Source: an uncultured Legionellales bacterium
Lineage (GTDB): Bacteria; Pseudomonadota; Gammaproteobacteria; Eutrophobiales; Eutrophobiaceae
Assembly: GCA_913045195.1 (NCBI GenBank)
Contig: CAJWQR010000008.1
Span: 1 to 40,367, forward strand
Direction of reading: 5' to 3'
Length of the DNA: 40,367 bases
Shown: in pieces, positions 16,977 to 36,343 of the stretch
Position numbering within the stretch: the stretch's first letter is position 1
Layout: every line of letters starts with the position of its first letter
Position numbers and translations under genes: made by a program
Notes under the pieces: model-generated
The model's database searches: none
Told to the model about the DNA's origin: nothing
Seen by the model: the letters and a program-made list of their open reading frames with translations, nothing else

Positions 16977-17570
16977 TTAATACATTCTCGCCTGCCCTAC
17001 TACTACACCTTGTATATTAATGCGATCGGCAGAATATTTCATTGGACTCATTGATTGATTATCAGGAATTAATTCAACTTGCTTTTCATGTTTTCTAAAT
17101 CGCTTTAAAGTCGCTTCACTATTATCAATTAACGCAACAACTATATCGCCGTTATCAGCTGATTGTGTCTCCCTGATAATAACTAAATCGCCGTCTAATA
17201 TACCCGCATCGACCATAGAGTCTCCTTGTACCTCAAGAACATACCGACCCGGTCCTAATAACATTTCAGAAAAATTTATTTCACATTGTTCTGAAATTGC
17301 TTCTATAGGTTTTCCTGCAGCGATACGGCCAGCAAGCGGCAAAATAGTTAATCTTCGATTTTGCTCTCCTGTCAAACGTATACCACGCCAATTTCTACCA
17401 GTACGCTGCAAATGTCCTTTATCAATCAATGATTTAATGTAGCGATGAATCGTCCCTTTAGATTTAATTTCGAGTAATTGCCCTATCTCATCTAATGTCG
17501 GGCTACGCCCATTTTGAGCTATATAGCGTGTAATGCACTGTAGAATCTTTTCTTCAAGACCGGTTAGCAT
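16977..17570 (-). CDS. lexA: LexA repressor
   Basis: wHTH (RSPTLDEIGQLLEIKSKGTIHRYIKSL), Ala-Gly cleavage region GRIAAGKP, Ser (VQGDSM) and Lys (EATLKRF) catalytic motifs. Confidence 0.92.
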   Translation of the reverse strand: MLTGLEEKILQCITRYIAQNGRSPTLDEIGQLLEIKSKGTIHRYIKSLIDKGHLQRTGRNWRGIRLTGEQNRRLTILPLAGRIAAGKPIEAISEQCEINFSEMLLGPGRYVLEVQGDSMVDAGILDGDLVIIRETQSADNGDIVVALIDNSEATLKRFRKHEKQVELIPDNQSMSPMKYSADRINIQGVVVGQARMY

Positions 17571-17576
17571 TAAAAA

Positions 17577-17622
17577 ATTCTCCCTATGTTCTCTTTTATA
17601 TAATAGAGTACTTTTAGAGAAC
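17577..17622. promoter_or_regulatory. Candidate LexA operators flanking the lexA -10 region
   Basis: Plus strand ATTCTC-CCTAT-GTTCTC (17577-17593), 12 nt, GAGTAC-TTTTA-GAGAAC (17606-17622): two GTTC-N7-GTTC-like boxes in opposite orientation, one mismatch each. Confidence 0.55.
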
Positions 17623-17642
17623 TTTCAATGAATTATTTAAAG

Positions 17643-32665: not shown

Positions 32666-33943
32666 CTAAATATTGTAACCGCGCTCATTATGCAAAACGA
32701 TATCAAGACCTTCAATTTCTTCGTCCTCTTCAACTCTCAAACCAACCATCATATCTACCAATTTTAAAATAACAAAGGTAATTACAGCACACCATACTAT
32801 GGTTGCAACGACACCAATTGCTTGAACCCCAAATTGAGAAGAAATTGAATAAGCTTCATCAGCAGACTGTAAACCACCATAAGAATTCGAATAAAATACA
32901 GCTGTTAATAAGCAGCCTAGAGCACCGCCAACACCATGCACTGGAAAAACATCAAGTGAATCATCAATTTTTAATCCGCGTTTAATATATTGTGTCGCAA
33001 AATAACACACAACGCCTGCTGAAATACCAATCAACAATCCACCTAATGGTCCGACATACCCTGAAGCAGGAGTAATAGTGCCTAAACCCGCAACCATGCC
33101 CGTTACAATGCCAAGTACAGTCGGCTTTCCTGATCTAACCCACTCACATGTCATCCATGCTAACGAACCAGCGGCGGCAGAGATATGCGTTACTGCCATC
33201 GCCATTCCGGCGCCACTGCCTGACGCTAATGCGCTACCCGCATTAAAACCAAACCAACCGACCCATAACATTGAGGCGCCGGCAACAGTCAATGCCATAT
33301 TATGAGGAGCCATTGGCTTGTCCGGAAAACCACGACGATTACCAAGTACTAGAGCCGCAACAATCGCGCCAACGCCCGCGTTGATGTGAACAACAGAACC
33401 GCCCGCAAAATCCATAAAACCTTTATCAGCAAGCCAACCACCGCCCCAAACCCAGTGGCAGACAGGCGCATAAACGAGAGTCAACCATAACGCACTAAAC
33501 AAAAGTACAGATGAGAATTTCATTCTTTCTGCAAAACCACCGATGATTAAAGCAGGCGTAATAATGGCGAATGTCATCTGAAACATGAAGAAAACAATCT
33601 CGGGTATAGTGCCGCTCATACTATCCATACCAACATCCGAAATCATAAGATTTCCGAGACCAACAATCTGATTGACTGACCCCCCATCACCAAAGGCCAA
33701 GCCATAGGCGAATACCATCCATAATATAGATACTAGGCAAGCAATGGCAAAACATTGCATCAAAACAGATAACACATTTTTTACACGAACAAGCCCCGAA
33801 TAAAATAATGCAAGTCCAGGTAATGTCATAAATAATACGAGCGCAGTAGAGACTAATATCCAAGCGGTATCGCCCGTATCTAATTCATCTGCAAACACTA
33901 CGCCTGGAAATATTGTGATTAATAATATTAAAATACGGTTCAT
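32666..33943 (-). CDS. amtB: Ammonium transporter AmtB (copy 1)
   Basis: DTGDTAWILVSTALVLFMTLPGLALFYSGLVR, ASMLWVGWFGFNAGSALA, DVFPVHGVGGALG; C-terminal HNERGY. Confidence 0.95.
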   Translation of the reverse strand: MNRILILLITIFPGVVFADELDTGDTAWILVSTALVLFMTLPGLALFYSGLVRVKNVLSVLMQCFAIACLVSILWMVFAYGLAFGDGGSVNQIVGLGNLMISDVGMDSMSGTIPEIVFFMFQMTFAIITPALIIGGFAERMKFSSVLLFSALWLTLVYAPVCHWVWGGGWLADKGFMDFAGGSVVHINAGVGAIVAALVLGNRRGFPDKPMAPHNMALTVAGASMLWVGWFGFNAGSALASGSGAGMAMAVTHISAAAGSLAWMTCEWVRSGKPTVLGIVTGMVAGLGTITPASGYVGPLGGLLIGISAGVVCYFATQYIKRGLKIDDSLDVFPVHGVGGALGCLLTAVFYSNSYGGLQSADEAYSISSQFGVQAIGVVATIVWCAVITFVILKLVDMMVGLRVEEDEEIEGLDIVLHNERGYNI

Positions 33944-34035
33944 TGAGTTCCCCCTCGTTATCCTCGAATGCTTTCCCAGTTACTAATTAATTTTAGCCTC
34001 ATTATAAAATTTAGTTTCCTATTTCTTTTTTTTAT

Positions 34036-34392
<357 letters not shown>

Positions 34393-34417
34393 TTATTATT
34401 TTGAAATAATATAGTAA

Positions 34418-34433
34418 CGCAGTACTTGAACCA
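34418..34433 (-). promoter_or_regulatory. Candidate sigma54 promoter upstream of glnK copy 1
   Basis: Minus strand TGGTTCAAGTACTGCG: GG-N10-GC spacing retained, about 45 bp upstream of the glnK ATG. Confidence 0.4.
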
Positions 34434-34530
34434 AAAATAGTCAAATTTAACTTATTCCCCATGTTGATTTTTAGATTCATATTTAAGGTAATTTGTCTAA
34501 ATAAGAAGATAACCCTTTTAATTTTAGTTA

Positions 34531-34556
34531 AAAAAAACGGGTCCAAAGACCCGTTT
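34531..34556 (-). terminator. Intrinsic terminator downstream of amtB copy 2
   Basis: Minus strand ACGGGTC-TTTG-GACCCGT followed by a T-rich run; 7-bp perfect stem, about 35 bp after the amtB stop. Confidence 0.8.
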
Positions 34557-34590
34557 AAATGGTAGAGAAGAAAATGTGTAAAGAAACTAA

Positions 34591-35928
34591 CTAGATAATG
34601 TAACCCCTTTCATTATGAGAGTTAACATCAAGACCGCCAACTTCCTCTTCTTCCGTGACACGAAGACCCATAACCGCGTCTAAGACCATCAAGATAATTG
34701 CAGTTAAAACACCCGTATAGATTATCGTGAATAAGACACTCTTCGTTTGAATCCAGATTTGAGTAGCAGTGCTTCCGTCTAAACCCACACCACCCCATGC
34801 AGATGATGTGCAGAGCCCGGTTAAGATAGCGCCGATAATACCCCCCACGGCATGAACTCCAAAAACATCCAGAGAATCGTCATAGCCCATTGCACGTTTT
34901 AATGTCGTTGAGGCAAAGAAGCAACCAGCGCCTGCCGCAACACCAATTAGTAATGCCCCTTGAGGTCCAACAGTACCTGATGCAGGAGTAATTGCGACTA
35001 AGCCGGCAACAGCGCCCGTTATAATACCTAAAACACTAGGTTTACCATGTGCATTCCACTCAACAATCATCCAAGCCAAAGCGGCAGTGGCGGTTGCAAT
35101 CTGCGTCACTAACATCGCCATTCCTGTGGTTGTGTCTGCAGCTAATTCAGATCCGGCATTAAAACCAAACCAACCGACCCATAACATTGAGGCACCAATG
35201 ACTGATAACGTTAAATTATGTGGTGGCATGGCAACTGAAGGATAGCCTTTGCGTTTACCAAGCATAATCGCTGCAACAAGACCAGCAATACCTGCATTAA
35301 TATGAACAACGGTGCCACCGGCAAAATCAATGACACCCCAGTCCCATAATAAGCCACCATCACCGGCCCAAACCATGTGCACCATTGGGAAGTAACAAAC
35401 GGTGACCCAAATCGCTATAAATACCATCATTGTTGAAAACTTCATTCTTTCTGCAAAAGCACCAACAATAAGAGCTGGTGTTATGATTGCGAAAGTTAGC
35501 TGAAAGCTGGCAAAAACTGATTCGGGTATAGTCCCTGACATTGAATCAACCGAAATTCCTTGTAGGAATGTATTACCAAAACCACCAATAATAGAATTCA
35601 AATTAAACACACCGGCTTCCATTCCTGTAGTGTCAAAAGCCATACTATAACCATACACAACCCAAATCACTGTAACTAAGCAGGTTATCGCAAAACACTG
35701 CATCATAACTGAAAGTACATTTTTGCTTCTCACCATCCCGGCGTAAAATAAACTCAGTCCAGGAATAGTCATCATTAAAACTAGTACCGTTGCAGTAATC
35801 ATCCAGGCGGTATCACCCGAATTTAATTCATCGGCTAATGCAAGCGAGGGTGCTAATGAGGTAATAAAACCGAGCGCGACACCTGCTAAGCCTTTCGTGT
35901 TAAATAAAACACCAAATAAACGTTTCAT
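34591..35928 (-). CDS. amtB: Ammonium transporter AmtB (copy 2); likely start at Met 35928, not 36015
   Basis: LNSGDTAWMITATVLVLMMTIPGLSLFYAGMVRSKN, GASMLWVGWFGFNAGSELA, DVFGVHAVGGIIG; AAGGAG 9 nt upstream of ATG 35928; the listed start would overlap glnK. Confidence 0.95.
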   Translation of the reverse strand: MKRLFGVLFNTKGLAGVALGFITSLAPSLALADELNSGDTAWMITATVLVLMMTIPGLSLFYAGMVRSKNVLSVMMQCFAITCLVTVIWVVYGYSMAFDTTGMEAGVFNLNSIIGGFGNTFLQGISVDSMSGTIPESVFASFQLTFAIITPALIVGAFAERMKFSTMMVFIAIWVTVCYFPMVHMVWAGDGGLLWDWGVIDFAGGTVVHINAGIAGLVAAIMLGKRKGYPSVAMPPHNLTLSVIGASMLWVGWFGFNAGSELAADTTTGMAMLVTQIATATAALAWMIVEWNAHGKPSVLGIITGAVAGLVAITPASGTVGPQGALLIGVAAGAGCFFASTTLKRAMGYDDSLDVFGVHAVGGIIGAILTGLCTSSAWGGVGLDGSTATQIWIQTKSVLFTIIYTGVLTAIILMVLDAVMGLRVTEEEEVGGLDVNSHNERGYII

Positions 35929-35956
35929 TGTTTTCATCTCCTTAAGGAATTTAGGT

Positions 35957-36343
<387 letters not shown>

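Follow-up and report, generated by a model that had tools for sequence, protein, structure and literature searches.

The two facing direct repeats upstream of lexA in the analyzed window, a DNA stretch of 40,367 nucleotides from an uncultured Legionellales bacterium, are very probably operators of the LexA protein encoded downstream of them, which together with one Y-family polymerase would constitute a minimal regulatory module. As judged from sequence, this repressor represents a class-wide clade separate from the Escherichia coli and alphaproteobacterial LexA types, and recA, uvrA, and recN are predicted to be independent of it. The window is derived from contig C8 of a 1.39-Mb assembly (86 contigs, 91% complete), in which a genome search returned one lexA match; one LexA was likewise found in each of five congeneric genomes. 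The lexA product P0001 scores 166.7 bits against the full-length LexA profile TIGR00498 (curated cut-off 110.95), contains the Pfam domains LexA_DNA_bind and Peptidase_S24, and, when aligned to E. coli LexA and to solved LexA chains, has the cleavage site A85-G86 and the catalytic residues Ser118 and Lys156. The gene is flanked by a sodium/proton antiporter gene on one side and by cysG on the other, and thus does not form part of a LexA2-ImuABC-type operon (lexA with imuA-imuB-dnaE2). Elsewhere in the window, two ammonium transporter genes are located close to each other (32666-36015, minus strand).

Table 1. Features of the lexA and polymerase loci; positions are those of the window unless contig C15 is given.
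Feature	Position	Strand	Description
lexA	16977-17570	-	197 aa, P0001; winged-HTH domain, recognition-helix segment S37-K-G-T-I-H-R-Y44
Proximal LexA operator (putative)	17577-17593	+	ATTCTCCCTATGTTCTC, ATTCTC-CCTAT-GTTCTC; one mismatch to GTTC-N7-GTTC
-10 hexamer TATTAT	17600-17605	-	Read from sequence; TATnnT after box in 77-site consensus
Distal LexA operator (putative)	17606-17622	-	GTTCTCTAAAAGTACTC, GTTCTC-TAAAA-GTACTC; one mismatch to GTTC-N7-GTTC
-35 hexamer TTGAAA	17623-17628	-	Read from sequence; TTGAAA before box in 77-site consensus
Y-family polymerase gene, P0002	C15:4708-6012		Only one found in the window's genome

A first-pass annotation of this DNA had described two opposed RTTCTC-N5-GTTCTC-like sites upstream of lexA, each one mismatch away from GTTC-N7-GTTC, with a -10-like element between them and with no CTGT-N8-ACAG box; direct reading of the intergenic region bears out all of these points, coordinates included (Table 1). 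The two boxes face each other across 12 bp, half of which is occupied on the coding strand by the -10 hexamer. The order of elements on that strand is TTGAAA, GTTCTCTAAAAGTACTC, TATTAT, the distal box being the exact 17-bp spacer of a sigma-70-type promoter. The proximal site, which reads GAGAACATAGGGAGAAT on the coding strand, spans the predicted transcription start and the ribosome-binding site, where it overlaps a Shine-Dalgarno-like AGGGAG. With at most one mismatch, the pattern RTTCTCN5GTWCTC occurs in the 40-kb window solely at these two sites (0.32 expected), a number reached in 2 of 100 shuffles by a pattern that was composed after the sites had been seen. With one mismatch allowed, neither the 8-base GTTC-N7-GTTC in the window (28 vs. 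20.9) nor RTTCTCN5GTWCTC in the whole genome (22 vs. 18 for the reversed control) shows enrichment. Since most matches in the window's own genome also lie inside genes, motif counting in that genome was dropped as a means of finding the regulon; an exact GTTCTC-N5-GTTCTC in hppA (contig C14) and a GTTCTC repeat with one extra spacer base in an isocitrate-lyase-family gene (contig C15) were rejected as coincidences within coding sequence. Because window and genome counts are weak in an AT-rich genome, the case rests on the position of the sites, their paired layout, and their conservation.

Conservation in close relatives, whose absence the annotation had named as refuting its reading, is seen well beyond them: the two-box and promoter layout upstream of lexA is kept in the window's genus, in many other genera of the family, and in members of the class at large. 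GTTC-N7-GTTC with at most one mismatch is found in 92 of 100 promoters of the window LexA type (69 of them exact; 6 of 100 after shuffling), in 70 of 72 alphaproteobacterial lexA promoters, and in 0 of 15 E. coli-type lexA promoters of the same class; the compared promoters and genomes are related, so that these counts are descriptive and not fully independent, yet the contrast between groups is still very large. CTGT-N8-ACAG shows the opposite distribution, being present with at most one mismatch in 10 of the 15 E. coli-type promoters and at the shuffled level in those of the window type (5/100 vs. 3/100). For the extended motif GTTCTC-N5-GTTCTC, the best site in the 100 window-type promoters matches 12 of 12 positions in 51, 11 in 30, and 10 in 9; thus, 81 fall within one mismatch, whereas the reversed motif peaks at 10/12, in 6 of 100. 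The consensus of 77 forward sites is TTGAAA-GTTCTCwwwwwGTTCTC-TATnnT, with TTG in 60 of 77 and with each position of the two hexamers in the box (1-6 and 12-17) conserved at 1.4-1.9 bits. Among promoters with two boxes, the commonest start-to-start offset is 29 bp (19/48), the same as in the window.

When 33 family genomes were scanned for the exact motif, most matches lay upstream of lexA or of a Y-family polymerase gene, in genomes with a window-type LexA; matches in genomes lacking it were discarded as random or tandem-repeat sites. In the window's genome, the box TTTCTCTAAATGTTCTC is located at C15:4673, upstream of the P0002 gene, within the frame TTGAAT-box-TTATAA. This polymerase contains IMS and IMS_C domains and has DNA polymerase IV models as its best matches; polymerases of the P0002 type are presumably active. 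The box precedes the polymerase of this second type in 6 of 6 congeneric genomes and the second Y-family polymerase in all 13 family genomes that have both a separate locus and a cleavable LexA. It is absent at canonical dinB genes (0/10) and at the second polymerase in genomes with a LexA that lacks the catalytic serine (G016, G036) or without any LexA (G017, G019; 0/4 together). This contrast, 13/13 against 0/14 for the ten dinB genes plus these four polymerases, corresponds to a Fisher p of about 5e-8. Class-wide, a P0002-like polymerase gene directly adjoins lexA in 28 of 67 window-type loci; some relatives with a boxed lexA, such as G008, have only an unboxed dinB. In three genomes (loci L085, L088, and L089 of G012, G011, and G025, respectively), the gene under the same box encodes a Y-family polymerase of a plainly distinct subtype, LYIDFDCFFASVEQQLQP, suggesting that the regulated polymerase was replaced there by another subtype.

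The first-pass annotation had taken the locus as a sign of a rewired SOS regulon and had pointed to boxes at other SOS genes as a check. The Y-family polymerase supplies such a second target, the only further recurrent one that was found, but recA, uvrA, and recN do not: the box was found upstream of recA in 0 of 26 family-level genomes (in G033, a 10/12 match lies near recA, but outside the promoter position), and upstream of uvrA and recN in 0 of 14 and 0 of 16 genomes, respectively, of the window's genus and family. A repressor devoted to a single translesion polymerase is therefore a more apt description than a rewired SOS regulon. The genes ssb, uvrB, and ruv were covered solely by the whole-genome motif scan, and further targets may be missing from the fragmented, 91% complete genome. 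Elsewhere in the class, 2 of 26 scored genomes have a box upstream of recA, with 12/12 (L367, G174) and 11/12 (L360, G161) matches, and in these two genomes the window-type LexA has possibly taken over a wider SOS network. They also lend some appeal to the idea that the window LexA governs a complete SOS network through boxes too degenerate for consensus matching, which we nevertheless regard as unlikely: in all but one case the best matches at recA, uvrA, and recN reach 7-9 of 12 positions, which is the chance level, compared with 10-12 at the lexA and polymerase sites. The recA promoters of the window's genus and near relatives (e.g., L138 in G000:C44, and L130) have in common an extended, conserved AT-rich segment that ends in AAAAAGTATTGACAT; it contains no LexA box match and is possibly an UP element or the site of another regulator.

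Window-type LexA proteins were delimited by a best E-value of at most 1e-42, beyond which a gap precedes the E. coli-type proteins; of the 276 genomes sampled from the class, 83 (about 30%) encode one, so that the gammaproteobacterial context is not an anomalous one for this type. A tree built from 86 LexA sequences places the 57 window-type, 16 alphaproteobacterial, and 11 E. coli-type proteins each on one side of a branch, with supports of 99/95, 100/99, and 100/99, respectively, and P0001 falls outside both of the latter clades. The resemblance to Alphaproteobacteria that had been proposed for the locus thus holds for operator and recognition helix and fails for the protein clade. In the helix, His-Arg replaces the Glu-Glu of E. 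coli LexA (RSPNAAEEHLKAL) both in P0001 (KSKGTIHRYIKSL) and in alphaproteobacterial LexA (KSKSGIHRLI), which fits the GTTC half-site that the two have in common; half-site and spacing equal those of the alphaproteobacterial box, and the agreement of protein and operator noted earlier is upheld. The common operator core, the similar helix, and the presence of alphaproteobacterial LexA among the closest outside matches to P0001 (36-44% identity) might speak for a recent horizontal transfer of lexA together with its operators from an alphaproteobacterium. The LexA trees, in which neither of the two well-supported clades is nested in the other, rule against this candidate, as does the spread of the window type over the class, and we give it hardly any credence. 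The two types may share an ancient ancestry, their sister relation being weakly supported (89/70, with few outgroups). The other reading to be considered, in which a different regulator operates through the repeats or they are just a strong promoter, LexA being inactive here, could draw on the conserved -35/-10 frame built around the motif. It is very improbable, since a promoter does not need the conserved hexamers inside its spacer, the second facing copy stands outside the promoter, the motif tracks the LexA clade while E. coli-type lexA genes of the class have CTGT-N8-ACAG, and the motif equals the alphaproteobacterial LexA box (PMC9578287, PMC8565304).

We propose LexA autorepression by paired operators. 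Bound to the distal box, a LexA dimer would occupy the spacer that separates the -35 from the -10 hexamer; another dimer, on the opposing proximal box, would cover the transcription start, and lexA would be repressed by its own product. The P0002 polymerase gene, preceded by this box in an equivalent promoter frame, would be under the same control. RecA filaments formed on damaged DNA would trigger LexA cleavage at A85-G86 and thereby derepress lexA and the polymerase gene, whose product would carry out translesion synthesis, whereas recA, uvrA, and recN would be expressed without LexA control. The sites, their layout and conservation, the LexA clade, the link to the polymerase gene, and the lack of boxes at recA, uvrA, and recN are read from sequence, whereas LexA binding, cleavage, damage induction, and polymerase function are predicted from what is known of these protein families. 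The clade would read GTTC-N7-GTTC, usually as GTTCTC-N5-GTTCTC, and is often encoded beside such a Y-family polymerase. It is likely that we deal with an ancient LexA lineage, present in about a third of gammaproteobacterial lineages and distinct from the E. coli and alphaproteobacterial types, which uses an alphaproteobacterial-type direct repeat and makes up a minimal module together with a single Y-family polymerase; the window's genus lacks the E. coli-type LexA, and there this module would be the entire LexA response.

In relatives of the window, the E. coli-type LexA is often encoded beside an imuA-like gene and imuB, and some relatives have both LexA types, which may split labor between two mutagenesis systems. 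In four LexA relatives (L023 and L026 of G016 and G036, L022 of G013, and L028 of G024), the catalytic serine is lost, with GNAM, GNTM, or GDAM in place of GDSM; their operators are kept, the Ala-Gly cleavage site is mostly lost too, and these proteins are probably not cleavable. Such lineages, in which the repressor has lost protease residues, offer material for studying the shrinkage or decay of SOS networks, and the window-type module itself would be a natural minimal SOS circuit that comprises a repressor and one translesion polymerase but not recA. Wherever the module exists, it would be missed by SOS predictions based on the E. coli motif, including those of LexA-box scanning tools.

The operator of Pseudomonas putida LexA2 is probably different from the window-type box. 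That system (lexA2-imuA-imuB-dnaE2; PMC3901139) is similar in that a LexA is dedicated to a mutagenesis operon including its own gene; however, the window type has as its partner just one Y-family polymerase, which is apparently active, instead of imuA-imuB-dnaE2. In reviews, GTTC-N7-GTTC is the box of Alphaproteobacteria, Caulobacter among them (PMC9578287, PMC8565304, PMC3323433). Most beta- and gammaproteobacteria are credited with CTGT-N8-ACAG, Xanthomonadales having a box of their own (PMC2248561). The operators of LexA are said to be almost specific to the class, their changes being monophyletic for the clade concerned (PMC3323433). Our literature search, with subscription journals mostly outside its reach, found no report of the direct-repeat box in Gammaproteobacteria, and priority is not established by it. 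Alphaproteobacterial LexA shares with the window type the GTTC half-site, the direct repeat with an 11-bp period, the His-Arg helix, and autoregulation (predicted here). It differs in length (about 230 vs. about 197 aa) and clade, whereas in the window type the box is lengthened to GTTCTC, the operators form a facing pair about a fixed promoter frame, and the regulon, in the window's family, includes neither recA nor uvrA. E. coli-type LexA (PMC3323433, PMC2248561) agrees with the window type in its domains, its protease dyad, its cleavage site, and its autorepressor role, but has a different recognition helix and operator and belongs to another clade. In the Geobacter lexA-imuB-C-polY system, in which, according to the work cited in PMC6511836, the recA promoter is not bound by LexA, lexA is likewise coupled to a Y-family polymerase with recA outside the regulon; it is unlike the window module in lineage, in its large palindromic operator (PMC8565304), and in its ImuB-C partner. 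Finally, Acinetobacter UmuDAb (PMC11332147) is also an S24-type repressor of error-prone polymerases in a gammaproteobacterium; however, it is UmuD-derived, needs DdrR, and has a 21-bp operator composed of a core and palindromic arms, whereas P0001 carries the Pfam LexA DNA-binding domain.
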